52,527 nt of DNA from Acidobacteriota bacterium (GTDB lineage: Bacteria > Acidobacteriota > Blastocatellia > RBC074): the NCBI GenBank assembly GCA_016196035.1, contig JACPYM010000059.1:1-52527 (forward strand), written 5' to 3'. How positions within the stretch are numbered: position 1 is the stretch's first letter; every line of letters begins with the position of its first letter. The notes beneath the pieces were generated by a model, which was not told the origin of the DNA, searched no databases, and worked only from the letters and a program-made list of their open reading frames with translations. Shown piece by piece: positions 1,615-37,469 of the stretch. A program made the translations under genes and the position numbers.

Positions 1615-1704
1615 GCGGATTGCAGATTGTAGCTTGGGGATTGCGGATTTTTGCTAATTTCGCAATCCTCAATCCTCAATCCTCAATCCTCAATCCTCAA
1701 TCCA
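1615..1704. repeat. Convergent heptamer arrays (element H1)
   Basis: The left half is five 7-bp units of the type GNGGATT (1615-1649), then a 13-bp core, then six units of CAATCCT (1663-1704, the last ending CCA). The right unit is the reverse complement of AGGATTG, so the two arrays face each other and the RNA or single strand could fold into a hairpin. It fills the gap between the small cytochrome and the next gene. Confidence 0.85.
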
Positions 1705-1730: not shown

Positions 1731-2324
<594 letters not shown>

Positions 2325-2951: not shown

Positions 2952-4904
2952 ATGAAGACTCTGACGATAGCCTGTTTGTTTTTCAGCTTCAGCTTGCTCT
3001 TTGCTGGCTGTACCAATCCGCCGAAACCCAATGAACCAGTTGCCCCAACGCCAGCCGCCGGTACGGTGTTGGGCAGCAACGGTCTATCCACCGCCGAACG
3101 GCAGAAGTTTTATCACCTGCCCGAAGGCAGCGAGCTTTACCCTTACGCCTGGGCCAAAGCGTTGATCAGCGCGCAAAGCGGCAAGCCCTTTCTCGAAAAC
3201 CTGGAGCGTTTCGGCCTGGTGCCGGATGAGAAGAGCGCCGACAACCCTTATGGTTTGCCGGTCGGCGTCACGGTGGGCAAACGGCGCGGCGTTGGTGACG
3301 TAGACATGATCGGGGTCAATTGCGCGGCTTGCCACGTCGGGCAATTGACGCAGCAGGGACGTGCGTTACGCGTGGATGGTGCGCCCAATCTGTTCGACAT
3401 TACGATGTTTTATACCGACATTGCCGACTCAACCAAAGCGACGATCAAAGACCCCGAGCAGCTCTGGGCCTTTGTCAAACGCTATCTCGCGGACAAGGAG
3501 CATCCGTCCGACACCGTTTCAGCAGCACCGGCGGGCGCGAATGGCCGGGCGGGTGAAAAGCGCGGGTATAAATTCGGCGATGCCACGCGCAAGGTGGTGG
3601 GCGCTTTCAGCGATCTCAAGACGATGACGGCGAAAGGCGAGCTGGAGAAGGCGCTGGTCGAAAAGATTCAGGCCACACTGAAGGTTGAGCTAGAAAAGGC
3701 GGAGAAGGATTACGGCACGGCGTCAGACCCGGTGGCGGAATCTGAAAAGGATTTGCGGGGCACGCTGGAAAACGATGTTAACGCGCTGTACAAAAAACAG
3801 TCGGGCGCAGGCAGTCCGTTAGGCGATGTGCAAGGTGACGAGAAGAAAGGATTGCTGCGCGAGTTCCTGCGCGATCTGAAAACCAACGTGGCGCTGTTCC
3901 GCTCTTACATCAAAATGTTCAAGACGCTGGCGGCGGCAGGTGCGGATAAGCGCGACACGCCGGGCGGTTTCGGGCGCGTGGATGCGTTTGGCAGTGCACG
4001 GTTCCTGTTCTTTGGGTTGGCGAATAAAAAGCCCAACACCGCGCCGGTTTCTTATCCGTTCATTTGGGGGATGGGCACGGAGGCTTGGGTGCATTACAAC
4101 GCGAACACGAATTCGGTGGTCGAACGTAACATTGGCCAAGCGCTGGGCTTAGGCGCAAGCTTCGATCCGAAGACCTTTGAGACGACCGTGCTGCTCGAAA
4201 ACACGCGCGATCTGGAATGGCTGGCTTATAAGATCACGCCGCCCGCTTGGCCAGAGGAGCTGCTGGGGAAGATTGACCAAAGCCTGGTCGCACGCGGCAA
4301 ACCGCTTTATGAACAGCACTGCGCCAGTTGCCACAACAAATGGGAGACGACGCCGGACGGGCTGCGTAACTTCCAACTTTTCTCATTGAAAGAAGTCGGC
4401 ACCGATCCGAATCAGGCCCAGAATTTCCACGCGCCGATTACGCTCAACGGCAAGCCCGCCAGCTTTGCCAAAGAGAATGGCAAGGCGACCGACCTCATCA
4501 AACAGGCGTATTACAAAGCCAACAACATTTCGCCTGACGAGCAGAAAAAGTGGGAAGGCAATCGCACGCCGATTGTCTGGCGCGACTTATTGGAGAATGG
4601 GCCGGATGCCAAAGTCTATTCGGCGCGCGGCCTGGCTGGGGTTTGGGCGACTGCGCCGTATTTGCACAATGGTTCGGTGCCGAACCTCTACGAATTGTTG
4701 TTGCCTACCGCCGAACGCTCGGCCACGTTTAACGTGGGCAGCCGTGAATATGATGCGAAGAACCTGGGCTATGCCAATGCGGGCGGCTTCAAATTCGACA
4801 CGGCGGTTGACGGTAATTCCAATCGCGGACATGAGTATGGCGCGAAGGAACTGAGCAAAGAAGACCGGTATGCTTTGCTGGAATATTTGAAGACGCTCAA
4901 GTGA
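2952..4904 (+). CDS. Dihaem c-type cytochrome lipoprotein, RoxA/dihaem-peroxidase-like
   Basis: A 650-residue exported protein with a lipoprotein signal ending LLFAGC, so probably lipid-anchored. It has two haem c motifs, C124-A-A-C-H128 and C457-A-S-C-H461. The C-terminal part contains the NGSVPNLYELLLP, FNVGSREYD and GNSNRGHEYG segments typical of the group containing rubber oxygenase RoxA and related dihaem cytochromes; the length fits that group. Known members oxidise or oxygenate substrates outside the cytoplasmic membrane, but the substrate here cannot be told from sequence. A helical, charged insert (about residues 200-320) separates the two haem regions. ATG 2952 follows AGAGGAGAACCC. 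It stands alone on the plus strand. Confidence 0.78.
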   Translation: MKTLTIACLFFSFSLLFAGCTNPPKPNEPVAPTPAAGTVLGSNGLSTAERQKFYHLPEGSELYPYAWAKALISAQSGKPFLENLERFGLVPDEKSADNPYGLPVGVTVGKRRGVGDVDMIGVNCAACHVGQLTQQGRALRVDGAPNLFDITMFYTDIADSTKATIKDPEQLWAFVKRYLADKEHPSDTVSAAPAGANGRAGEKRGYKFGDATRKVVGAFSDLKTMTAKGELEKALVEKIQATLKVELEKAEKDYGTASDPVAESEKDLRGTLENDVNALYKKQSGAGSPLGDVQGDEKKGLLREFLRDLKTNVALFRSYIKMFKTLAAAGADKRDTPGGFGRVDAFGSARFLFFGLANKKPNTAPVSYPFIWGMGTEAWVHYNANTNSVVERNIGQALGLGASFDPKTFETTVLLENTRDLEWLAYKITPPAWPEELLGKIDQSLVARGKPLYEQHCASCHNKWETTPDGLRNFQLFSLKEVGTDPNQAQNFHAPITLNGKPASFAKENGKATDLIKQAYYKANNISPDEQKKWEGNRTPIVWRDLLENGPDAKVYSARGLAGVWATAPYLHNGSVPNLYELLLPTAERSATFNVGSREYDAKNLGYANAGGFKFDTAVDGNSNRGHEYGAKELSKEDRYALLEYLKTLK

Positions 4905-4960
4905 GGTTGGCTCAGTTTCCTGAGCATGTGTCGCACAGGCCGTCGTGTTCGTTATCATTG

Positions 4961-5073
4961 ATTGACTGCGATTGACTGCGATTGACTGCGATTGACTGCG
5001 ATTGACTGCGATTGACTGCGATTGACTGCGATTGACTGCGATTGACTGCGATTGACTGCGATTGACTGCGATT
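4961..5073. repeat. Tandem array of 10-bp units
   Basis: Eleven consecutive perfect copies of ATTGACTGCG plus the first three bases of a twelfth. The period equals about one helical turn. It lies in the 297-bp gap between the dihaem cytochrome and RNase J genes, with no coding frame of its own. Confidence 0.97.
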
Positions 5074-5201: not shown

Positions 5202-6863
5202 ATGCAAACAGGCAGACTCGAAATTACCCCACTCGGCGGACTCGGACAATTCGGCATGAACATAACGGCCTTCCGTTATGACGAGCAGATGATCATCGTG
5301 GATTGCGGGATGATGTTCCCCGACGAAGACCTGCTCGGCGTGGACATCGCCATCCCCGACATGAGCTACATCGAAGCCCACCGCGAAGAACTGGTCGGCC
5401 TCGTCCTCACCCACGCGCACGAAGACCACGTTGGCGCGATCCCGTTTTTACTGCAATCCATTGATCTGCCGGTTTACGCCACCCAATTCACGCTGGGCTT
5501 GATCGAGGGCAAGCTGCAAGAGTTTGGGCTGCTCGACAAAGTTAAGACGCACACCATCGGCCCGCGCCAGTCGTTCAAGCTAGGGCCGTTCGAGATCGAA
5601 TTCGTGCGCGTCTCGCATTCGCTGGTGGATTGCGTCGCGCTGGCGATCACCACACCCGTCGGCGTTGTCGTCCACACCGGCGATTTCAAGGTGGACGAGA
5701 CGCCAGTGATTGGCGAGGCGATTGACCTGAAACGGTTGAATGAAATTGGCGACAAAGGCGTGCTGGCACTGCTCTCGGATTCGACCAACGTCGAACGCGA
5801 AGGCCGCACCGGCTCCGAAAAGGTCGTGATCCCGGCGCTCGACAAAATCTTCGCCGAGACGCGCGGGCGCATGATCGTCTCGTGTTTTGCGACCAGCATT
5901 CACCGCTTGCAGATCGTGTTTGACCTGGCGGCGGAGCACGGGCGTTCCGTCGCGCTGCTGGGCCGCAGCATGTTGCGCGTGACCGAGGTCGCCGAGCGCA
6001 GCGGCTATCTGGACATTGACGACGGCCAACTGGTCAGCCCCGCGCAGGCGCGCAAGATGCATCCTGATGAGGTCGTCTTGCTGGTGACCGGCAGCCAGGG
6101 TGAGCCGATGTCGGCGCTCGCGCGCATGTCCGTGGATCAGCACCGCGATGCTAGCGTGACCGAAGGCGACACCGTGGTGTTATCGGCGCGCCAGATTCCG
6201 GGCAATGAAAAATCCATCTCGCGCATGATGAATCATCTGTTCAAACGCGGCGCGCACGTGATTGATTCCAGCATCGCGCGCATCCACGTCAGCGGCCACG
6301 GGCGCGAAGGCGATTTGAAAATCATGTATGACGCCGTGCGCCCCAAATTCCTCATCCCGATTCACGGCGAGACGCGCCAACTCTATCGCCACGCCGAAGC
6401 CGCGCGCCGTTGGGGCGTCGCGCGCGACCGCATCGTGCTGGCCGAGAGCGGCGACGTGATCGGCCTGGATGAAGACAGCGCCGGGGTCGTAGAGAAAATC
6501 ACCGTCGGGCGCACGCTGATTGACGATTCGGGTTCGGGGCGGATTGATGAACTGGTGCTGCGCGACCGCAAGCATCTGGCCTACGACGGCATCGTGCTGC
6601 CCATCGTGGCGATCAACAAGGCCTCGGGCGAATTGGAGTCGGCGCCCGAAGTGATCCAGCGCGGTTTGGCCTTGGGCGAAGAGGGCGATGCTTTCCTGCA
6701 CCGCGCCCGTGCCATCGTCGGCACGACCATCAGCAACGCGACACACGAAGAGCGCGTGGATTGGGCCGTCATCAAAGAGAAAATTCGGCTGGAACTGAAA
6801 CGCTACATTCAGAAAGAGACGGGCCGCCGTCCGATGATCATCCCGGTTGTGCTGGAAATTTGA
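5202..6863 (+). CDS. rnj: Ribonuclease J
   Basis: A 553-residue metallo-beta-lactamase/beta-CASP ribonuclease, acting in the cytoplasm in mRNA decay and rRNA maturation as both 5'-3' exonuclease and endonuclease. The zinc motif H71-A-H73-E-D75-H76 is intact. It is followed by the VHTGDFK and [10 protein letters not shown] segments, the beta-CASP region ([12 protein letters not shown]) and the ISGHGREGD-type motif ([10 protein letters not shown]), then the C-terminal RNase J domain ending in a Lys/Arg-rich helix. Length and N-terminus ([20 protein letters not shown]) agree with the family. The gene is monocistronic as far as visible. Family assignment is secure. Confidence 0.95.
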
Positions 6864-12118: not shown

Positions 12119-12589
12119 GGATGGTGTCCCTTTCGTGATGCGTGAATGTTGTGGAGTGTGTCGAAATGCGCGGCTAAATCTACTCTGGCGGGTTGGGTTT
12201 GACAATCCGGCTGCCGGTTTTGTCCGCAGGGTTAGTTTGAATCGCTGCGCTCCCAGGGATGATCCCAAATTTTTACCGGAAGAAATTTTTTCCTCCGGTA
12301 AATTTTTCGGGACTGAGCCGTTAGAGACGCTTGCTGGGGACGGTGTTCAGAGTTCCGCCTTTAGGCGGTGGGGTGCCGCAGGCGCGCGATTCGGCGCCGC
12401 GCGCCGCCACCGCCTAAAGGCGGAACTCTGAACACCGTTTTGCCACGCCCATAACATCCTCGAATTTTTTACAGTAAGAATTTTTTCGGGAAGTGATTCA
12501 GTCGCTGCCGGGATTACGCATGTGTCAGTGCGGGCGCATTGAGTGACTCGCACTGAGGAGAGAAAAACATTATCAAGCAGGAGAAGGCA
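12119..12589. other. 471-bp gap with hairpins and palindrome A copy 2
   Basis: Besides the family A palindrome at 12341-12437, the gap holds TTTACCGGA (12272-12280) paired with TCCGGTAAA (12294-12302) around a T-rich loop, a possible weak terminator, and A/T-rich stretches near 12460-12490. No coding frame of merit. Confidence 0.5.
12341..12437. repeat. Long-arm palindromic element, family A copy 2
   Basis: Arms beginning CGGTGTTCAGAGTTCCGCC and ending with the reverse complement, with a GC-rich centre matching the copy at 2712-2815. The outer bases GGTGTT/AACACC differ from GGCGTT/AACGCC in copy 1 on both sides, so pairing is conserved. Confidence 0.9.
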
Positions 12590-15031: not shown

Positions 15032-15455
15032 AACTACCTCCGTGCGGAAAACGCCAGTTACGGCAGGGGCTGCGTAGCTGGCTGAGTCAAGTGGCTTGGT
15101 GTTGGCTTGCTACGTGCAAGCCTGGATTCAGACGCCGTCCAAAAGAACGAACTGCGGCAACACCTTTGCAATGGGATTGCCGCAGGGCAACACACGACTC
15201 CTTTTGGCGAAGCCTTTGGAGTGCGTGCGGCACAGGCCGCCGCTTTGGTAGGCCTTAAATGATGTAGCCCACGAAGGGCATACCAAAGCGGCGGCCTGTG
15301 CCGCACGCACTCCAAAGACGCTGCGCGTCGAAATCAGCATAGGCCTCAATTGTTCAAGCCGCGCAGTGAACCGCCGGGCTAATGGAAAAACAACCTTGCG
15401 GCAGCGTGCCTCTGAACCCGTAACCGCATAGACGCCAACTTCACAGCCGTTGTGC
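15032..15455. other. 424-bp gap with palindrome B copy 1
   Basis: The gap between the DUF4349 gene and the next minus-strand gene is mostly taken up by the family B palindrome. I see no gene in the remainder. Confidence 0.5.
15204..15333 (+). repeat. Long-arm palindromic element, family B copy 1
   Basis: Perfect 36-bp arms (15215-15250 and 15281-15316, starting TTTGGAGTGCGTGCGGCAC) flank a 30-base loop. Outside the arms are different end boxes, TTGGCGAAGCC on the left and GACGCTGCGCGTCGAAA on the right. Both boxes recur at the second copy (24624-24752) in the opposite orientation, which defines the element and gives it a direction. Confidence 0.92.
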
Positions 15456-16580: not shown

Positions 16581-16682
16581 GTTGAGACGGTACCGCGCGC
16601 GTGAGCAAGCGGTGCTTGCACCGTTGAGCCAATGGTGCAGCGCTGCTACGCCGCTTGCTCACGCGCGCGGTACCGTCTCAAC
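16581..16682. repeat. Long-arm palindromic element, family C copy 1
   Basis: Perfect 32-bp arms (16581-16612 and 16651-16682) containing GGTACCGCGCGCGTGAGCAA, separated by a 38-base centre that can itself pair in part. The right arm ends just before the sulfatase stop codon. A diverged second copy lies at 28561-28655. Confidence 0.92.
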
Positions 16683-18161: not shown

Positions 18162-18566
18162 TTACCGGTCTTTAACGCGAATGACGAAGCGCAGGCCCGA
18201 CCAGGTCTCGTCAATCGCGCAAACTTTGTTGTCCACCAAGCCCGATTCCAAGCCCACGCGCCGCACGACAGTTTCCGTCACGTCTGTCGCCACACCCGCA
18301 GCCCGCTTGGGCCAGGCAACCCACAGCCCGCCCGCCGGGCTGAGCTTGGCCGCCAGTTCACCAAAACGCTTCCATAACTCGCTTTCGCTTTTGGTGAAGA
18401 AGACGATGACATCCAACGGCGCGCGCATCTGCTTCACGATTTCGACTGCGGCGGGCAATGTGCCCAGTGTCGCCGCGAAACCAACGGGCGCATTCACGAG
18501 CGCCACGCGGTGCTTTTCTTTGATGCCCAATTTTTTCGGCAAGGGCGTGCCTGAATAACCAGCCAT
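18162..18566 (-). CDS. DUF3052 family protein
   Basis: A 134-residue cytoplasmic protein matching the DUF3052 pattern. It opens [17 protein letters not shown], continues with [10 protein letters not shown], the strand [14 protein letters not shown] and [13 protein letters not shown], and ends [20 protein letters not shown]. Family function is unknown. It precedes the sulfatase with a 25-bp gap, and its promoter side carries the heptamer element H2, whose first array begins about 17 bp upstream of the start codon, so the repeat lies in the 5' leader. Confidence 0.85.
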
Positions 18567-18583
18567 TTTTAGAATGCGGAATA

Positions 18584-18837
18584 GAGATTGGAGATTGGAG
18601 ATTGGAGATTGGAGATTGGAGATTGGAGATTGGAGATTGGAGATTGGAGATTGGAGATTGGAGATTGGAGATTGGCAGTGAACTTGATTTCAATCATAAC
18701 AAACGCGAAATAACCTTCGGAGGTTAGAAAATTCGCCATCCGCCATCCGCCATCCGCCATCCGCCATCCGCCATCCGCCATCCGCCATCTGCGATCCGCC
18801 ATGTCCCGTCTCCAATCTCCAATCTCCAATCTCCAAT
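18584..18837. repeat. Compound heptamer arrays (element H2)
   Basis: Three arrays are present. The first is thirteen perfect copies of GAGATTG (18584-18674). After a ~60-bp unique core come eight copies of CGCCATC with two decayed ones (18734-18803). Last are four copies of CTCCAAT (18810-18837). CTCCAAT is the reverse complement of ATTGGAG, a rotation of the first unit, so the outer arrays face each other. It fills the gap between the DUF3052 and MFS genes. Confidence 0.95.
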
Positions 18838-18883
18838 GCCACGGCCTACAGCGACCTCAACGTGCGCGATGTTAGCTGAGTTC

Positions 18884-20071
18884 TCAAGGCTCGTAAATGT
18901 CGGGCAGGAGTTCAGCGGCGGAAGGCGTCACCGCTTCAGCCGCCTGCTGTCGTATGTGCCGTAACAACCAGGCCAGCGCCGCCAGCGTCGCCAACAAATC
19001 AGCGCCCACCAGCCATAACAAGACTTGCGCGCCACTGCGCTCAAAGAGTTGACCGATCATCCACGGCAGGGCCATCGCGCCCAGGGCCGAGGCGACCAAT
19101 ACCCAGCCTGCGAGACGCCCCGACAGATGGAAGGTGCGTTGCGTCCACGCCATCATTGCCGGATAGACCGGGGCCATCGCCAGGCCCGAACCGACGGCGC
19201 AAAGCCACAATGCGGCCGTGGCGTTTGACCAACTCAACACCAGCGCCAGCAGCGCCAGCCAGCCGAGCAAATGCGCCGTCACGATGCGGCGTTCGCTAAA
19301 GCGCAGCGCCAGCGGGATGCCCGCCAGCCGTCCCAAGGTGAAGGCCGCCCAGAAGGCCGAATTGACATAAAACGCCGTCTCGGTGCTGACGCCGCGCAAG
19401 GTCGCATACGTGAAAATCCAGCCGCTGATGGAACCCTCCGCGCTGACTTCCAAAAAGAAAAACAGCAGCAACAACACGATGGTTCGATCCATGACGATGG
19501 CCTGGGCGCGTTGGTGTGCGTGTGGCGGCGGTGGCGGGCTGGCGACGGCGCCGAGCGGCAACGCGGTCAGAACGACAAACCCGGCTAGTGCGCCGTATGT
19601 CCACCAGACCGCGTCAACGCGTCCGGCAAACGGTTTGGCCAGCAGCGGGGCCGCCAAGCCGCCTACGCCGTAGGCAAAATGGATGAAGCTCAAATGCGGC
19701 CCCACGCGCGTGCCGTGCGCGCGCGCGATCAGCGCGTGACTGCCGACGTTGACCATTGACGAAGCCAGGCCGACCAGCACAAAAACAGGCCACAGCAAGC
19801 CCAGCCAGCGTAATTGCGTCACCAGCGCCAGCGCGGCTGCCGCGGTGCACAATGCGCCCGCCAGGAGCGGATGCCCCGCCGCCCGGTCATAAAGCTTGCC
19901 AAGCACCAACGCCCCGGTGATGGTGCCGGTGGAACGGGCGACAAACAGCCAACTGATCTGGCTGGTCGTCGTGCCGGTGAATTCAGCCAACGCAGGCAGC
20001 GTCGGCCCCAAGGAAGCTGTAATTAAGCCTAACGCGATAAAGGTAAGTGCATACAGAATGGTGCGGCTCAT
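18884..20071 (-). CDS. Major facilitator superfamily transporter
   Basis: A 395-residue polytopic inner-membrane protein with about 12 hydrophobic segments. It shows the FHS/MFSD4-like variant of the family: ITASLGPTLPALAEFTG at the N-terminus, GLASSMVNVGSHALIARAH and HFAYGVGGLAAPLLAKPF in helices 4-5. The repeat unit in the second half includes GSGLAMAPVYPAMMAWTQ. The likely substrates of that branch are sugars, but this is only by similarity of pattern. ATG 20071. Downstream of it is the heptamer block H2, upstream another one (H3). Confidence 0.82.
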   Translation of the reverse strand: MSRTILYALTFIALGLITASLGPTLPALAEFTGTTTSQISWLFVARSTGTITGALVLGKLYDRAAGHPLLAGALCTAAAALALVTQLRWLGLLWPVFVLVGLASSMVNVGSHALIARAHGTRVGPHLSFIHFAYGVGGLAAPLLAKPFAGRVDAVWWTYGALAGFVVLTALPLGAVASPPPPPHAHQRAQAIVMDRTIVLLLLFFFLEVSAEGSISGWIFTYATLRGVSTETAFYVNSAFWAAFTLGRLAGIPLALRFSERRIVTAHLLGWLALLALVLSWSNATAALWLCAVGSGLAMAPVYPAMMAWTQRTFHLSGRLAGWVLVASALGAMALPWMIGQLFERSGAQVLLWLVGADLLATLAALAWLLRHIRQQAAEAVTPSAAELLPDIYEP

Positions 20072-20186: not shown

Positions 20187-20221
20187 CATTCTCCATTCTT
20201 TATTCTCAATTCTTCATTCTG
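20187..20221. repeat. Heptamer array (element H3)
   Basis: Five consecutive 7-bp units of the type NATTCTN (CATTCTC, CATTCTT, TATTCTC, AATTCTT, CATTCTG). It lies between the CHAT gene end and the MFS gene start. Confidence 0.7.
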
Positions 20222-20239: not shown

Positions 20240-20294
20240 CTAAACACCGCTTGGCCTAAGCACCGCTTGGCCTAAGCACCGCTTGGCCTAAGCA
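20240..20294. repeat. 16-bp tandem repeat
   Basis: Three full copies and a partial copy of CTAAGCACCGCTTGGC in the gap between the MFS and CHAT genes, directly beside H3. Confidence 0.9.
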
Positions 20295-20364: not shown

Positions 20365-23300
20365 TCAGCGCCATTCGCCCTGCAACACAAACGGCGCCCA
20401 GTAATACGGGGCTTGCCAGCGTTGCTCTTGCCAGAGCGCGATCTGGGCCGCGCGCAAGGCGGCGGCGGGGCGTTGTTTGTCTTGCAAGAGATTGCGATAA
20501 AAGCGGGCCATCAGTTCCGACGTGCCTTTGTCGCTGACGGCCCACAATGTAACGGCGACGCGCGCGGCCCCGGCGTACATAAAGCCGCGCGTCAAACCGA
20601 TCAGCCCTTCGCCGCGCACCTGTTTGCCCAGCCCCGTTTCGCACGCGCTCAGCACGACCAGTTCCGCTGGCAGATTGAAATTGTAGACTTCGTGCGCGCG
20701 CAAAAAACCGTCCTGCGGTTGGCCGTTTTCATCCACCAGCGAAAGCAGGATCGCCGAAAGCTCGGGCCGTTCGCTGTCGAAATAGGCGTGCGTCGCCAAA
20801 TGCACGATGCGATAGCGGCCCAATTCGCCCGAAGTCGCCGTCGCCCGATTCGCCTGAAAATCCAGCGCGCGAAAGACGTCGTTGTCCACACTCTTTGGCG
20901 TGGCGGCCCCAGAGGCGGCGGCCCCAGAGGCAGCGGCCCCAGAGGCAGCGGCCCCAGAGGCAGCAGCAACGATGCGTTCGGCTTCGTCACGTGTGGCGGG
21001 CAGGCGCGGGATGCGGCCTCCTTGTGTGCCGAGCTTTTTCAAAAACAGCGCGCGCGTCAGATTGGTTGCGGCCGCCGGTTCATCCGCCTTGGCGGCTGGC
21101 GCACCCACGTGCGCTTTGACACGTTCATCGCCGGATTCAAACACCGGATCAGCGATCACCGCGACCGCGCCTGAGGCAGGTTGCCGCCCTTTCAATTCCT
21201 GCCGCAACACGCTCATCGTCGAAGCCGAGGGCAGGGAAACGATTTCGTGATCGAGGACTAAGGGATGAGGGATGAGGGATGAAGGATGAGGGGCGGTACG
21301 GCGTTTTTGCGCAACCCGCGTTCGCCTTTCATCCTTCATCCTTCCACCTTCATCCTTCGGCAGCGGCAGCGCGCTGAACGGCAAAAACTGCAACGCGCCA
21401 TCGGCCACGATCAAGAGGCGTTTGTCTTTCCATACGCCGCGCAACTGCGTCGCGATGGGGCCGAGCAGCGCGCGGCTGAGCGGTTCGGCCTCGCGCCAGT
21501 ACGCGGCGTCCGCTTCGGCGGGCGTGGCGTCGCGGCCATTCACTTGCACCGGGTTGGTCAGGCGCTGTTTGGTGTCGCGCGCTGTCAGTAGCTGATAAAG
21601 CCGTTGAGCGGCGGTCTCGAGTTCGGCGCGGTTGGGTAGTGTGAAACTGTGAATGGTGCGCGGCGTGACGGCCCAGAGATAGCTGCGCTGCTCGCCGAGC
21701 GCGAATTCCAAGAGCACGGTGTCGTCGTCCAGCACCTGCTTTTGAATGTCGGCCAGCGCCAACGGCTGCGGTTGCGTCAGCGCGGCATAACGCGGACTGT
21801 TTTGCCGAATCTGCGTTTGCACGTCGCGGTACTCGACATAAAGCGCATCGAGTTCGCGCTTGGCTTCGGCGACTCGTTCATCGGTGCGCGCCAGCGTCAG
21901 CGCATCGGCCCATTTGTTGATGCGTTGTTGCAGATTGCTTTCGCGCGCCAGCAATCCGGCGTCCACGCCACTGCGAATGTTCGCGCCCGCTTCATTCAAG
22001 CTGTCCAGCAGTCCGCGCGCGCGCGCCCGTTCGGCGGCCTGCAAGGCCTGGCCGTCGAAGCCGCCGTCTTTGTTCTCTTCGTGCTGGCGCATCAGCACGT
22101 CAATGTAAAGGTCGTAGTACTTTTGCGCGGTGGCGAAATAGGAGGCGCGCAAATCCTGGCTGGCGACTTTGGTGCGCACGGTTTCAACCAACCCGAGCGC
22201 GGCTTCGAGTTGCGTGCGGGCTTCGTCGAGTTGACCCTCTTCGGCATTGAGCCGCGCCAGTTGATAGCGCGTATTGATCTCGCGGCTGGGATCGCTGATG
22301 TCGCGGGCGAGCGCCAGCGCATCGGCCAACGCCGCGCGCGCCTGCGCGGGCTGGTTCAACACGCGATAGGTCAACGCCAGATGCGAGAGCGTGTCGGCCT
22401 GACCACCGCGATTGCCGACTTCGCGGTGCAGCGCCAGCGCCTGCGTGAGAATTTCCAGCGCCTTGTCGGTGTGCCCCAGTTCGCGTTCGACAAAGCCGGT
22501 GGCGGCCAGCGTGTTCGATTCGCCGCCCTTGTCTTGCAGCGTGCGCCAGAGTTTCAAGTCCTCGCTGAAAATCTCGCGCGCCTGTTCGCGTTCGCCCGCT
22601 TCGTAATACCAATAGCCGAGCACGTGCAGCGTTTCGGCCTCAAACGTCTTCGCGCCCATCTCGCGCGTCAAGGCCAGCGCCTGCTGGTAATACTGCAACG
22701 CCTGTTCGCGGTCGCCGAGCGAAAGATAGAGCGAACCGATGTTGGTGAGCGTGGGGGCCAGCACGGGCAGCAGCTTTAGCTTTTGGGCGACCGCCAACGC
22801 TTGCTGAAAATGCTCGAAGGCCAATTGCTTCTCGCCCAGCCGGTCGTAGGTTTGCCCGATGTTTTGCAGTGTGATGGCTTCGTTGCGCTGTTGCGTGGTC
22901 GTGCGCCAATGCGCCAGCGCTGCTTGATAACAATCCAGCGCGCGTTGGTTCTCGCCCAGGTCGGCATAGACGGTCGCCATATTGTTCAGCGTGTTGGCCT
23001 CGCCGTTTTTGTCTTTGACGGCGCGGCGCAAGAGCAGCGCCTCATCGTATTGCGCCAGCGCTTTTTTGCGTTCGCCGAATGAATTATAGAGCGCGCCGAC
23101 GTTGCTGATGACGGTCGCTTCCAAGCGTTGGTTTTTGAGTTCACGGCTGCGGGCGAGCGCCTTGTCGTAATAATCGAGTGCTGTCTGTTTCTCGCCGAGC
23201 GATTTGTTGACGACGCCCAGATAGTTGAGCGTCATCGCTTCCTGCCCGTCTTTTTTCAATTCGTGCAGCAGCGGCAAGGCCAGCAAAAACTGGTCGCGCG

Positions 23301-24486
23301 CCTCGGCCCATTTGCCGATGACGTAAAAGAATTCGCCCAGTTCGTAAAGCATATTGGCTTCGCCCGCCTGATCTTTGTCGGCGCGGTGCGCGGCCAGCAA
23401 TTGGTTATAAGCGTCGAGCGCGAGTTCCGGTTTGCCTAACGCTTCTTGCACGCGGCCCATTTGATAAAGCACGGCGGTCTCAGTCGCGCGGTCTTGGGCG
23501 GCGCGCGTCAGCGGCAGCGCCTGTTCGTAAGCTTCGTTGGCCTGTTGATATTCACGCAGTTGGAAATGGGCGATGGCGATGTTGGTCGTCGTGATGCCTT
23601 CTTCTTTGCTCTCGCCAAGTTCGTGGAAAAGCGTTTTGGCTTGCGTCAGCACGGGGATGGCTGCGCGGAACTGACCGTTGGCGTTGTGGACTTCGCCCAT
23701 TGCTTCGGTGGCGTCGGCGCTGCCCTTGCGGTCGTTGAGTTCCTGCCGCAACTTGAGTTCCTGCTGAAAGTAATCGAGTGCTTCTTTGAACTCTTTCAAC
23801 TCGCTGGCGACTTCGCCGAGTTCATGCAGGACGACAGCTTCGCCCGCGCGTTCCTGCGCCTCGTGGCGCAGCTTGAGCGCGGCCAGCAGTTTTTCGCGCG
23901 CGGACGGCAATGCTTCGGGTTTCTTGTCAGCGCGCAACTGCTTGGCCTCGCGCAAGAGCCGGTCGGCGGCCAGCCGTGTGCGATCAGCGGCGGTGGCGGC
24001 GCGGCGTTCGGCGATAGCCAGGTGATAGGCGGCTTTTGTTTCTTTGCCAGCCGCTTGCTTGGCTCCTTCGCCAATCTCGTTTTCGGTGGAGTGTAGCTCA
24101 AGCATGTATTCGCCCGCGCTGTCGGCAATGAAGGAAACCGGTTGGGCGGCCTTCTCACCGCTTTTGCGTTTGGTCTCGATTAGGCGTTCGCCTGTGGGCG
24201 CGAGCACGGCAATGCTGAGTGGCGAAGTTTGCGGTTCGACCGCGAGGCTGACGAAATAGTTGGCCTTGAGCTTGAGCCGGTACGTTTGCGTTTGGCCGGC
24301 GGTTAGCGTGCCCTCGACCGGTTTGCTCTTGCTGAGCTTCACGGCCTGTGGCGTGTTGGCGTCTTTCGCTTTCTTACTTTTGCCTTTGGCGGCAGGTGCT
24401 GGCGCTTCTTGCGCAGTCGCCAACGCAATGGTCAAGCAGGAAAACAACAAAAACGGCAAGGCGAGTTTTTGGATGGCAATAATCAT
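20365..24486 (-). CDS. Exported TPR-CHAT protein (1373 aa)
   Basis: CHAT domains are caspase-like Cys proteases of clan CD. Here a Sec signal (residues 1-25) and a Lys/Ala-rich linker lead to a beta-sandwich pre-peptidase-like segment (TYRLKLKANYFVSLAVEPQ, SAGEYMLELHS). About 14 tetratricopeptide repeats (roughly residues 200-850) follow, then the CHAT domain at the C-terminus. The dyad is intact: His1233 in HLATHAYF and Cys1282 in LSACETGLG. Export makes it an envelope or periplasmic protease-like protein, unlike the cytoplasmic CHATs of type III-E CRISPR or TIR systems. The CHAT part carries two odd inserts: a heptamer-repeat-derived stretch (21262-21358) and four AASGA-type repeats (20903-20962). 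ATG 24486 follows a short AGGAG-poor leader. Substrate unknown. Confidence 0.88.
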   Translation of the reverse strand: MIIAIQKLALPFLLFSCLTIALATAQEAPAPAAKGKSKKAKDANTPQAVKLSKSKPVEGTLTAGQTQTYRLKLKANYFVSLAVEPQTSPLSIAVLAPTGERLIETKRKSGEKAAQPVSFIADSAGEYMLELHSTENEIGEGAKQAAGKETKAAYHLAIAERRAATAADRTRLAADRLLREAKQLRADKKPEALPSAREKLLAALKLRHEAQERAGEAVVLHELGEVASELKEFKEALDYFQQELKLRQELNDRKGSADATEAMGEVHNANGQFRAAIPVLTQAKTLFHELGESKEEGITTTNIAIAHFQLREYQQANEAYEQALPLTRAAQDRATETAVLYQMGRVQEALGKPELALDAYNQLLAAHRADKDQAGEANMLYELGEFFYVIGKWAEARDQFLLALPLLHELKKDGQEAMTLNYLGVVNKSLGEKQTALDYYDKALARSRELKNQRLEATVISNVGALYNSFGERKKALAQYDEALLLRRAVKDKNGEANTLNNMATVYADLGENQRALDCYQAALAHWRTTTQQRNEAITLQNIGQTYDRLGEKQLAFEHFQQALAVAQKLKLLPVLAPTLTNIGSLYLSLGDREQALQYYQQALALTREMGAKTFEAETLHVLGYWYYEAGEREQAREIFSEDLKLWRTLQDKGGESNTLAATGFVERELGHTDKALEILTQALALHREVGNRGGQADTLSHLALTYRVLNQPAQARAALADALALARDISDPSREINTRYQLARLNAEEGQLDEARTQLEAALGLVETVRTKVASQDLRASYFATAQKYYDLYIDVLMRQHEENKDGGFDGQALQAAERARARGLLDSLNEAGANIRSGVDAGLLARESNLQQRINKWADALTLARTDERVAEAKRELDALYVEYRDVQTQIRQNSPRYAALTQPQPLALADIQKQVLDDDTVLLEFALGEQRSYLWAVTPRTIHSFTLPNRAELETAAQRLYQLLTARDTKQRLTNPVQVNGRDATPAEADAAYWREAEPLSRALLGPIATQLRGVWKDKRLLIVADGALQFLPFSALPLPKDEGGRMKDERRTRVAQKRRTAPHPSSLIPHPLVLDHEIVSLPSASTMSVLRQELKGRQPASGAVAVIADPVFESGDERVKAHVGAPAAKADEPAAATNLTRALFLKKLGTQGGRIPRLPATRDEAERIVAAASGAAASGAAASGAAASGAATPKSVDNDVFRALDFQANRATATSGELGRYRIVHLATHAYFDSERPELSAILLSLVDENGQPQDGFLRAHEVYNFNLPAELVVLSACETGLGKQVRGEGLIGLTRGFMYAGAARVAVTLWAVSDKGTSELMARFYRNLLQDKQRPAAALRAAQIALWQEQRWQAPYYWAPFVLQGEWR
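20903..20962. repeat. 15-bp tandem repeat inside the CHAT gene
   Basis: Four copies of GCGGCCCCAGAGGCA (the first ending in G), each encoding five residues of the AASGA type, in frame, between the Arg-rich segment PATRDEAERIVAA and the strand before the catalytic His. Slippage here changes length without breaking the frame. Confidence 0.92.
21262..21358. repeat. Convergent heptamer arrays inside the CHAT gene (element H4)
   Basis: Four units GGGATGA/AGGATGA (21262-21289) face four or five units of the type TTCATCC (21327-21358) across a ~37-bp core. The frame stays open, giving the segment KDEGGRMKDERR...HPSSLIPHP between the strands LPFSALPLP and LVLDHEIVSLPSAS, where CHAT proteins usually have only a short loop. 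Confidence 0.85.
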
Positions 24487-24762
24487 GGGTATTGCTCCAC
24501 GACGAAAGGAGATTGCTTCGGCTTTTCAATTGGGAGGGGGAGTCGTTCTGTGCTGGTAGGCATCATAAGGAAAGCTGTGCGCAAAGCAAATAGGCCACAG
24601 ATGCTTGTGCATTAACTCGCCGCTTTCGACGCGCAGCGTCTTTGGAGTGCGTGCGGCACAGGCCGCCGCTTTGGTATGCCCTTCTTTGGCTAATTGTTGA
24701 AGGCATACCAAAGCGGCGGCCTGTGCCGCACGCACTCCAAAGGCTTCGCCAATTCAAAGTAT
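24487..24762. other. Gap with palindrome B copy 2
   Basis: The upstream side of the CHAT gene and the downstream side of the penicillin acylase gene. Apart from palindrome B I see no gene. Confidence 0.4.
24624..24752 (-). repeat. Long-arm palindromic element, family B copy 2
   Basis: Perfect 40-bp arms (24641-24680 and 24702-24741), the same TTTGGAGTGCGTGCGGCAC arm as copy 1 but with a different loop. The end boxes are swapped and inverted relative to 15204-15333 (TTTCGACGCGCAGCGTC on the left, GGCTTCGCCAA on the right), so this copy is inserted in the opposite direction. Confidence 0.92.
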
Positions 24763-27081
24763 TTATTTTCCGCCCGCCGCTTTCATTGCCTTGGCCGCGC
24801 CATTCGCCAAAGCCGTTTCACCTGGGTGATACGCGGCTTCGAGATTTGCCTTGATCTCTTCCAGCGTGAACCAGGCCGGTTTGAATTGGCGGTTGGAATA
24901 CAACGTGGCCTGATCGAAATAATGCTTCGATTGCGGGTCATGGCGCTCGCCGAATTGCAGCAGCGAACGCGCCTGCACCTGCGGCCCGAATTCGACGACG
25001 CTGACGAACGAGTGCCCGACTTGCCCGTAAAGCTTCTTCAAGCCCTTCGCAATCGGCGTGTCAAAAGGCGTGTAAAAGTTAAACACCGTGCCGACGTACT
25101 CGCCAGGACCGCCCAGCACGGGCAGGCTGGGTTTGTTGTCATCGAATTTTTCCAACGTGCCGCTCGTGTGCACGCGCTGGATGCGCACCATCTCGCTATA
25201 CGGGACGCGCCAGGTGCCCCAGGCTTGCGCGATGTTGTTCATCACGTATTCGAGCACGGCGGTTTCGGGGAAGGGCAGCGACTTGGTCATCTGCCTGGCT
25301 TGCGGTTGCGCGCGCGAGTACGCCCACAGCGAGAACAGCGACGCGGCGACCGAATCTGCTTCGATGCGGGTATTCCAGGCTTTCAGCATCTGCACGGCCT
25401 CAGCCGTCTTTTCGGCCTTGACCGCGTCGGCGGCTTTCAGCTTTTCCCATTCGGCAGCGATCAATGGCACCAGCGTTTCGGCCTCGATGCAGCGGTTGTC
25501 AAAACCCGCCTGCGCCCAGTCATCAAAACTGAATTTGGCTTTTTCGCTCAGCACGCGGCGCGAACTGCGCGAACGCGGGCCGTCTTTTTCAGGGGCCATA
25601 TAAGCGGGGAACTTGGCGGCGTCGGGATTGTCTTTGCTGCCTTCCGCCGTCGCCAGGAAGGGCGTGGCGTTGCAGTTTTGCGCCCAGCCGGTCGAGGGGT
25701 TCTCGACTTGCGGCAACTCTTCGAGTTTGTGGTAGCCCTGCCATTCGGTTTTCGGATTGCTGCCGTCCACGGGTTTCGACCAATCGAATTGCGGGTCGCG
25801 GCGCGGCACTGCGCCGTAATAGACGTACCAGATGTTGCCCGCGCGGTCGGCGTACATCGTGTTGAACATGGGCACGGCGGTCTTGCTCATCGCGGCTTTG
25901 AACTCTTTCAGGTTTTGCGCGTGGCCCATCGCGAAGCGCTGTTCCATCTGACCGCCTTCTTCGTACATCGCCATCCGCACCGTCAGCGGCTTGCCATTGC
26001 GAATCCCCATCACCGGGCCGTGATGCGTCTTGCGGAATTTGAAGGTTTTGGTCACGACGCCACTGTCGGTTTTGATTTGAATGCTATCCGTCCATTCGGT
26101 CGCGGTGCGGTAGCCGCTGCCGTATTTGTAATTGAGCGGCTTGGCCGGATCGTCGAATTGCTCTTCCCACACGTCGTAAATGTCGGGCGTGTTGACGGTG
26201 TGGCTCCAACCCATGTTCTCGTTGTGGCCGACGGTCGGGAAGGGCGAACCGGGAAACGACGCACCTGAAAGATTCCAACCCGTCGCGCTGTGGATGTGGC
26301 CTTCGATCCACTGGCCGGGGCCGAAAAAGGGCTGGTGCGGATTGATGAACAGCATCGCGTGGCCGGTTGCACTCTTTTGCGGCGTGATCGCCCAGGTGTT
26401 GGAACCGACCAGCCCGGCATTCCAGACATCGTTCTCTTCTTCCGCTTGCGGCTGGCGGCTGGCGGATTGCGGATTTGGAAGAAGCTGCGCGGTCTTTGCA
26501 CCGACTTCGGGGATCGCTGCGAGCGTCTCGGCCTCTTTGATACCGGCGCGGCGGTATATGAAAAGTTGATATTCCGCGAAGCGTTCGAAGGCCACGACCG
26601 CCCACGGTTCCAGCTTGGTCAGCAGGCGCGGTTTGACCTGCGGGTTCTTTTCCAGGAAGTAGTTATAGCCGTCCGACACCGCCTGACAAAGCTGTTTCAT
26701 CGCCGGGCTGAGCTTGGCGTATTCGGCCTGCGAGAGTTTGACGACTTCGAGCGCGCGGTTGGTCAGGTCAGCGCCCAGCGATTTTTCGCCATAAACCTCA
26801 GACGCACGGCCCAGCGTCTGAATGTAGCTGTCTTCGACCTGCCAGAAATTGTCTTCGCATTGCGCGTAGATGAAGCCGAACATCACGCTGTAATCGGTCG
26901 GCCCGTAAACGTGCGGCACGCCCCAGGTGTCGCGGTAAATCGTGACTGATTGCGCGACTTTGGCGAGGCTGGTGTTTTGGGCTTTCGCCTTGGTATCAGC
27001 CTGCGCACTGGGGGCAAAGGCCTGCGGCCAAGCCAGGGCCGCGAGCAAAAACGCGAGAAGGGCGAAGCGGAAGAGTTTCAT
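24763..27081 (-). CDS. Penicillin acylase family Ntn-hydrolase
   Basis: A 772-residue periplasmic amidase precursor that would cut itself into alpha and beta subunits. Family substrates include penicillins, acyl-homoserine lactones and other N-acyl compounds; the substrate here is not known. After a Sec signal comes the alpha part ([29 protein letters not shown]). A spacer peptide precedes the nucleophile Ser227 in G|SNTWAI, the expected autoprocessing site. The beta part has [23 protein letters not shown] and a late [12 protein letters not shown] segment. The spacer contains a heptamer repeat (H5). ATG 27081 follows AGGAG. It is divergent from an ATP-grasp gene with 94 bp between starts. Confidence 0.9.
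26446..26480. repeat. Heptamer array inside the acylase spacer (element H5)
   Basis: Five 7-bp units read TTGCGGC, TGGCGGC, TGGCGGA, TTGCGGA, TTTGGAA. In the gene they encode about residues 201-212 ([11 protein letters not shown]), some 15 residues before the nucleophile Ser227, i.e. in the spacer that is removed or cut during maturation. Confidence 0.7.
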
Positions 27082-28560: not shown

Positions 28561-28655
28561 GGCAGTACCGCGCGCGTCAGCAAGCGGGAAATCGTGAATG
28601 TGCCGTGTTCCGCCAGGGCAGACGCGCCGCTTGCTGACGCACGCGGTACTGTGTC
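28561..28655. repeat. Long-arm palindromic element, family C copy 2
   Basis: Imperfect arms (28561-28587 and 28627-28655) share CAGTACCGCG.GCGTCAGCAAGCGG with copy 1 at 16581-16682, with a different centre. It lies between two convergent genes, where it could also act as a terminator. Confidence 0.85.
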
Positions 28656-37427: not shown

Positions 37428-37469
37428 CATTCCCTTGCCCCCACTCCTTTGTCTCCATTCCTTTGTCCG
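37428..37469. repeat. 14/7-bp periodic array (element H6)
   Basis: Three 14-bp units, CATTCCCTTGCCCC, CACTCCTTTGTCTC and CATTCCTTTGTCCG, each made of two related heptamers. The left flank (about 37364-37400) has purine-rich partial complements such as GCAAGGGA. Confidence 0.65.

Follow-up and report, generated by a model that had tools for sequence, protein, structure and literature searches.

Paired arrays of 7 bp units are already known from bacteria. In Xanthomonas, Rehm 2015 (PMC4692102) reports convergent pairs of GGGAATC arrays, 70 in Xcc and 75 in Xac, which are found near stop codons in the space between aligned ORFs, the coding strand being G-rich near stops and the other strand near starts. 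Most of these heptamer repeats are transcribed, and 83% of the repeats are at the same position in two Xanthomonas species; the layout is usually kept between species, with extensive variation in length and sequence. Quadruplexes are proposed there, and the functional role of the heptamer repeats is left to be elucidated. For several cyanobacteria, hairpins of 7 bp repeats between hupS and hupL are cited in PMC2670836, with a suggested role in stability or coupling.

Other accounts concern the repeats more generally. MacGregor 2015 (PMC4679880) deals with the TAACTGA repeats of Beggiatoaceae, Cyanobacteria, and Bacteroidetes. As reported in that paper and in PMC4692102, heptamers lead the long simple repeats of many prokaryotes according to Mrazek et al. 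2007, who proposed slippage. Intrastrand triplexes are treated in Holder 2015 (PMC4666352).

The H1 element and other repeats of the window

The window, a stretch of 52,527 nucleotides, contains an element, H1, which is best read as one of many intergenic stem-loops built from two inverted arrays of 7 bp units. Its left arm (1611–1649) is a TRF array of period 7 (GATTGCG, 5.6 copies, 78% matches) made up of mixed GGATTGC-type heptamers, with the G-rich strand on the plus strand. The right arm (1663–1709), the inverted partner, is nearly uniform (CAATCCT × 6.7, period 7, 97% matches), and the 13 bp spacer between them (1650–1662) would be the loop of the hairpin. The earlier note had described H1 as two heptamer arrays facing each other across 13 bp, which the TRF boundaries bear out.

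H1 takes up most of the 123 bp gap separating two plus-strand genes. The upstream gene (1326–1607, 93 aa) has no Pfam match and is found in relatives beside the same downstream gene; its stop codon is 3 nt from the left arm. The right arm ends 21 nt before the start codon of the downstream gene (1731–2324, plus strand), which matches Gluconate_2-dh3 (PF13618, E 3.2e-30). The predicted fold of the gap (1605–1733) has an energy of −47.2 kcal/mol and a z of −5.70. There is no intrinsic terminator, that is a stem with a T run, at H1; two terminator-like sites were found in 1300–2400, with 1.4 expected, and both are at 2096–2124 on the other strand. The window has no match to an Rfam family above the gathering score. 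Two contigs of relatives, G001:C923 and G006:C48, stop <100 bp from their Gluconate_2-dh3 match, and the case in G001 adjoins the H1 junction.

A second facing pair lies in a gap between two minus-strand genes. On the plus strand, GAGATTG × 13.1 (18584–18675) is the left arm and TCTCCAA × 4.1 (18809–18837) its inverted partner, with another heptamer array, CGCCATC × 9.9 (18734–18802), inside the loop; the minus strand of 18564–18886 has a predicted fold with a z of −5.25. The third facing pair, AGGGATG × 4.6 (21261–21292) and TTCATCC × 4.4 (21328–21358), again given for the plus strand, is inside the ORF of a TPR-CHAT protein (20365–24486, minus strand). The same frame holds a 15 bp repeat (20903–20964). 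Both repeats are within the CHAT match, and the fact that this match covers residues 1000–1371 against a profile of 289 positions suggests that they are insertions in the domain.

Three further arrays reported by TRF on the plus strand are weak: a single CATTCTC array at 20187–20220 (77% matches), a single heptamer array at 26446–26475 (86%), which sits in a penicillin amidase gene (24763–27081, minus strand), and a pyrimidine-rich array with a 14 bp (7 bp) period at 37428–37468 (77%). None of these has a facing pair at the thresholds used for pair detection. Six such elements had been counted in the window by the earlier note, three of them with the inverted layout. Each of the five places beyond H1 does have a period of 7 or 14 bp, and the figure of three is right, since H1, 18584–18837, and 21261–21358 are clear facing pairs; with the other three so weak, the count of six is generous.

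The window also carries repeats of other kinds. A perfect 10 bp tandem repeat (GATTGACTGC × 11.4, 4960–5073) is located between the genes at 2952–4904 and 5202–6863, and a 16 bp tandem repeat (CTAAGCACCGCTTGGC × 3.4, 20240–20294) near the weak heptamer array at 20187. REP-like palindromes are present at 12340–12438, 15214–15317, 16581–16682, 24640–24742, and 28563–28651. These recur in the genome sample, as in the GTACCGCGCGCG family, for which 21 inverted repeats were counted.

Period, partners, and orientation across genomes

The genome that holds the window, G000 (9.59 Mb, 139 contigs), was sampled over 800,819 bp: the window and 40 further stretches totalling 748,292 bp. This sample has 35 arrays of period 7 at threshold 13, against at most 8 of any other period, and 26 at threshold 18, where the next best period has 4. 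In its first 400,819 bp there are 21 arrays of period 7 and at most 5 of any other period of 2–40; one order-3 Markov simulation of 400,819 bp gave no array of any period at threshold 13. G013, a genome from another family of the same class, has 87 arrays of period 7 in 382,308 bp, with at most 10 at the next period. There are 11 against 3 in G006 and only 4 against 2 in the 346,071 bp of G008, so the abundance is uneven among genomes. The arrays are mainly intergenic, those inside genes being 6 of 35 oriented arrays in G000 and 9 of 85 in G013.

For the threshold-13 arrays, the unit of each array was sought within 250 bp on either side, a match being at least 12 of 14 bases. In G000, 29 of 37 arrays have an inverted partner of their own unit and 4 have a direct one; in G013 the figures are 47 and 15 of 92. 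The partner scores are higher for own units than for the units of other arrays (p = 9e-8 in G000, 2e-10 in G013). Facing pairs in G000 number 18 for period 7 and 0–2 each for periods 5, 6, 8, 9, and 10, the likeness of the arms within a pair being in part built into its detection. The earlier note had held that the period and, in three cases, the inverted layout stay the same and the unit varies between loci. Period 7 does exceed the other periods in G000, G013, G006, and G008, inverted partners are common, and the constancy of period and layout under varying units is supported in G000 and G013.

Arrays of this kind are spread widely and unevenly. CAATCCN × 3 is found in 38 of the 118 genomes searched (G000 included), with 0–160 sites per genome, and the reversed control has sites in just four of the genomes listed (16, 1, 5, and 1) and is otherwise zero. 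At least 119 stretches of GTDB contigs, with record titles from several phyla, contain CAATCCG × 3. Of 297 genomes searched in the phylum, 9 contain CTACTGA × 3 plus one base, with a reversed control of zero: 115 sites are in G000, 1–14 in each of seven others, and 922 in G013, a number far above those of the other 296 genomes searched. Array-rich genomes favour units of their own.

The orientation of the pairs was assessed on 45 pairs that had not been chosen by the CAATCC unit (18 from G000, 6 from G006, 1 from G008, and 20 from other phyla) and on 31 from G013, in all 76 pairs with 41 distinct units. G outnumbers C in the left arm of 71 of the 76 pairs and 37 of the 41 units; without G013 this is so in 40 of 45, the rest being 4 ties and 1 reversed pair. 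This count excludes 40 pairs of CAATCC type from other phyla, for which that unit had been the search key; 39 of them agree and 1 is reversed. Relative to the genes, 25 of the 29 intergenic arrays in G000, and 65 of 76 in G013, have their G-rich strand running away from the gene nearest to them. With identical units left out, a rotation-aligned profile calls the orientation correctly for 40 of the 45 pairs; its information content is 4.37 bits, against a highest value of 3.53 among 20 random re-orientations, and the units have the loose consensus R-G-W-W-K-K-C. It had been proposed in the earlier note that unit length, and not sequence, is conserved. The units do vary under a constant period and layout; the loose consensus, the G-first left arms, and the agreement of units at the same junction described below limit the second half of that statement.

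A G-first left arm is not a trait of palindromes in general, as G exceeds C in the left arm of 20 non-heptamer palindrome clusters in the gaps of G000, G006, and G008 and C exceeds G in 14 (p = 0.39). The left arm of these non-heptamer palindromes is purine-rich in 26 of 32 clusters (26 versus 6). Avoidance of ribosome-site mimics near start codons fails as a cause for units such as AGTAGTC, and telomere-like addition to 3' ends, a candidate raised by the orientation, is without other support.

The G-rich left arms are compatible with the view of Rehm 2015 that these are G-quadruplex elements, in which the G-rich strand matters and the inverted partner is secondary, and quadruplexes formed in vitro have been published for GGGAATC-type oligonucleotides (PMC4692102). 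However, GGG is present in just 5 of 45 units and GG is absent from 21 of 45 (22 and 28 of 76 with G013), and inverted partners are usual. A quadruplex function of the elements at large is thus very unlikely.

REP families share one sequence across a genome, and REP/REPIN palindromes are linked with Y1 transposases. The finding of unit arrays across phyla would fit the spread of mobile palindromes by a REP-associated Y1 transposase or similar enzyme, with insertion at stop codons; there are Y1 genes in G000 (14 matches) and in most relatives, dispersed REP-like palindromes in G000, and a palindrome at the H1 junction in G001. On the other hand, the heptamer elements have no common genome-wide sequence, given the number of units among the pairs, and the numbers of Y1 genes and CAATCC sites do not go together, at 3 and 160 in G003, 1 and 47 in G009, and 10 and 0 in G004. 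Mobility of this kind is therefore quite unlikely. Although Y1 genes are present, their counts do not track array counts in 11 genomes of the family, and the Y1 transposase is not supported as the driver.

Gene junctions and their counterparts in relatives

Positions relative to genes rest on a simple, purpose-written codon-usage caller and are approximate. Of the 18 facing pairs in G000, 13 can be placed between two confidently called genes. The two genes are on the same strand in each of these 13 cases, and 11 of the 13 pairs start 0–9 nt past the stop codon; a looser assignment of the 18 gives 14 same-strand, 3 overlapping a gene, and 1 at an edge. The distance from pair to stop codon lies within −4 to 9 nt in 17 of 28 cases from other phyla and within −5 to 9 nt in 12 of 20 from G013. 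In the background of G000, 187 of 247 gaps of 60–350 bp are same-strand. In the loci from other phyla, 25 of 32 assigned pairs are same-strand, as are 223 of the 297 background gaps, not counting 24 further pairs that overlap a gene or lie at an edge and 4 in loci that are too short; G013 gives 20 of 27 pairs against 81 of 110 gaps. The same-strand bias is weak, and the pairs are more consistently marked by their nearness to the stop codon. Pfam matches at the junctions point, among others, to mrdA-rodA (a PBP2-type transpeptidase, then RodA), to flgF-flgG (both flagellar rod genes), to the efflux genes HlyD and AcrB, and to enolase preceded by an OMP gene.

Strong predicted folds (z < −3) are seen in G000 in 51 of 127 same-strand gaps, 23 of 30 convergent gaps, 1 of 12 divergent gaps, and 5 of 169 coding stretches. 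The corresponding gap figures are 39 of 83, 9 of 9, and 1 of 15 for G006, and 19 of 54, 7 of 10, and 0 of 8 for G008. That folding gaps are commonest between convergent genes makes hairpins a feature of gene 3' ends at large, not confined to operon junctions; some of these gene-end hairpins will be terminators or REP-like palindromes.

Six junctions with a heptamer pair in G000 were compared across ten genomes of the family. At the H1 junction, heptamers are present in G003 (GGGAGTG) and G008 (AATTGAT) and, as judged by eye, in G006 and G010, other palindromes in G001 and G009, and no strong hairpin in G002, G004, and G005. Between mrdA and rodA there are heptamers in G006 and G009, where the stop codon TAG falls in register with them, and long unrelated palindromes starting at the stop codon in G001 and G004; G008 has a right arm only, and in four genomes the gap is just 10–29 nt. 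The right arms at this junction within one genus go from CTACTGA in G009 through mixed CTACTGA and CTACCGA in G006 to the CTACCGA type in G008, a graded change of unit. The YMGG/ThiF junction has a strong hairpin in 8 of 9 relatives, 5 of them heptamer and 3 other palindromes. Strong hairpins are found in 2 of 6 relatives at OMP/enolase, 4 of 5 at HlyD/AcrB, and 0 of 1 at flgF/flgG. In G009 the YMGG/ThiF gap (L209) also has a tandem repeat of 11 bp type, TGAAGTCGGCC, in about 11 copies directly before the heptamer hairpin.

A seventh site (CHRD/SSF, L015) was dropped, the upstream gene being beside the downstream one in 0 of 10 relatives. Also dropped were G007 at the H1 junction, G010 at mrdA/rodA, G001 at YMGG/ThiF, and G006 at OMP/enolase; at the last of these G001, G007, and G009 have no match. 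HlyD/AcrB was left out for G002, G006, and G009, where the downstream gene was not found, and for G005 and G007, where the matches are distant paralogues, and a flgG-type gene is present among the relatives in G007 only. Synteny between G006 and G008 is too broken for an unbiased census, with 25 adjacent gene pairs of which few are usable.

Altogether 24 of the 35 scorable gaps of relatives fold with z < −3, against 109 of 264 background same-strand gaps (one-sided Fisher p = 0.002); four gaps of less than 40 nt, all at mrdA-rodA, were left unscored. The background consists of 127 gaps from G000 (50–260 bp) and 83 from G006 and 54 from G008 (40–330 bp). As the sites were picked by their heptamer pair in G000, the 24 of 35 measures the keeping of the state of a site, and sites that are merely permissive would give the same sign. 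Typed by eye, the 24 structured gaps are 14 heptamer and 10 other palindromes. In the 14 script-detected pairs, the agreement between units is 5.58 of 7 positions for the same site in different genomes and 4.24 of 7 for different sites (p = 0.02, site labels shuffled within genomes), which indicates that the turnover of units is partly drift of an inherited element and partly replacement.

The fixed spacing of these tandem direct repeats and their place near gene ends are what might be expected if a sequence-specific regulator bound to these stretches of DNA or RNA, an argument that MacGregor 2015 makes for the one unit of the TAACTGA repeats (PMC4679880). With so many units among the pairs, and with units at a junction that differ between relatives, there is however no constant site to be bound, and such a regulator is an extremely improbable explanation. 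Both the regulator-site and the quadruplex views are argued against here as general explanations. The junctions tend to keep the facing arrangement, able to form a hairpin and with its G-first arm, and not a sequence or a run of G.

Formation of the elements and comparison with known repeats

Our tentative account, to which we give a little less than even weight, is that 7 nt slippage together with exchange of units between the arms builds hairpins of the H1 type, and that the junctions tolerate or use them. Each arm would lengthen by slippage in 7 nt steps, and units might be exchanged between the arms by template switching while the strand is folded back. Such exchange would hold both arms on one unit, so that the unit could drift and the layout stay. 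Elements would persist at junctions through folding of the inserted stretch in the mRNA, which would keep the upstream stop codon near the downstream ribosome-binding site and leave little bare untranslated RNA. They may be tolerated as they are folded away, or may be wanted for some use. Drift of the unit in both arms would be a natural case of concerted evolution at the 7 bp scale. The G-first rule lies outside this model of slippage and exchange.

The order of unit variants in the arms bears on how the exchange could work. In 32 heterogeneous pairs, the agreement of variant order is above that of shuffles in 17 and below it in 13 (p = 0.15), and no pair reaches p ≤ 0.05. Copying of a whole arm onto the other is thereby rejected. 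The unmirrored order suggests that the arms grow separately, and that exchange, if real, acts on single units and is succeeded by growth of each arm on its own.

It is possible, if on balance doubtful, that selection acts on mRNA pairing at junctions as such, any pairing sequence serving as a 3'-end stabiliser, insulator, or means of translational coupling. The folds of H1 (z −5.70) and of 18564–18886 (z −5.25) are strong, and the hairpins between hupS and hupL, with their suggested roles in stability or coupling, are a precedent (PMC2670836). A role of the hairpin is favoured by the 10 gaps of relatives that hold an unrelated palindrome at the same junction. Retention through folding of the mRNA predicts, however, that G-U pairs are tolerated, and the expected excess of G:T mismatches on the sense strand is absent, which counts against selection at the level of RNA. 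Over 135 inverted repeats taken from same-strand gaps in G000, G006, and G008 there are 67 G:T, 94 A:C, and 127 other mismatches, a difference between G:T and A:C opposite in direction to the prediction (p = 0.04), and the 22 of period 7 among these repeats have 10 G:T, 23 A:C, and 21 others. In addition, 11 of the 35 relatives' gaps have no strong hairpin, quite apart from the four very short gaps between mrdA and rodA. Neither the lack of a G-U signal nor the existence of empty junctions would be expected if a hairpin were strictly needed.

A broader proposal is that many junctions are pressed to hold a stem-loop right after the stop codon, heptamer pairs, with a unit that drifts in concert in both arms, and unrelated palindromes being interchangeable and the sequence of the loop irrelevant. 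We regard this as unlikely. If true, it would make the heptamer elements of Xanthomonas, Nostoc, and other bacteria one solution to a general and unrecognised requirement of gene ends. Comparison of orthologous junctions makes the role of heptamer repeats testable.

The earlier note had seen in these elements a class distinct from the known heptamer repeats. This does not stand, as the layout is already seen in Rehm 2015 (PMC4692102) and between hupS and hupL (PMC2670836); the layout of the element is not new, and the present elements extend a known kind. What is new is that the elements do not depend on unit sequence, that one orientation rule spans 41 units, that the layout is kept at orthologous junctions, and that 11 of the 13 gap-placed pairs of G000 start next to the stop codon. 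No paper describing unit turnover at orthologous junctions, or a swap with other palindromes, was found among open-licence full texts.

STRR types each have a named, constant unit. The present elements, with 41 units in 76 pairs, have no such constancy, and they share with STRR and with prokaryotic heptanucleotide repeats the over-representation and the intergenic position. They resemble cyanobacterial STRR in their 7 bp units, STRR hairpins lying between the co-transcribed hupS and hupL, and STRR are described in that account for single units and single operons (PMC2670836). For the heptanucleotide repeats of Mrazek et al. 2007, neither a facing layout nor an orthologous comparison is mentioned in the accounts given by PMC4679880 and PMC4692102.

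The TAACTGA repeats are likewise intergenic heptamer arrays, patchy over distant lineages and overlapping stop codons, but they are described as direct, with one inverted case and one fixed unit (PMC4679880). Neither TAACTGA nor its complement, in any cyclic form, is among the 41 units found here. As in REP and REPIN, the heptamer elements are short intergenic palindromes, some of them at the same junctions in relatives; unlike these, they have no common dispersed sequence, and their units differ between loci.

There is a close likeness to the repeats of Rehm 2015, GGGAATC in Xanthomonas and GGGGA(C/T)T in Nostoc, which have the same 7 bp unit length, are mostly intergenic, and form convergent pairs near stops (PMC4692102). 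As described there, those repeats have one unit per genome, chosen for its G runs, with few pairs in Nostoc. Elements of the G000 type, in contrast, have many units per genome, often without G runs, and at orthologous junctions the units turn over and are swapped with other palindromes.
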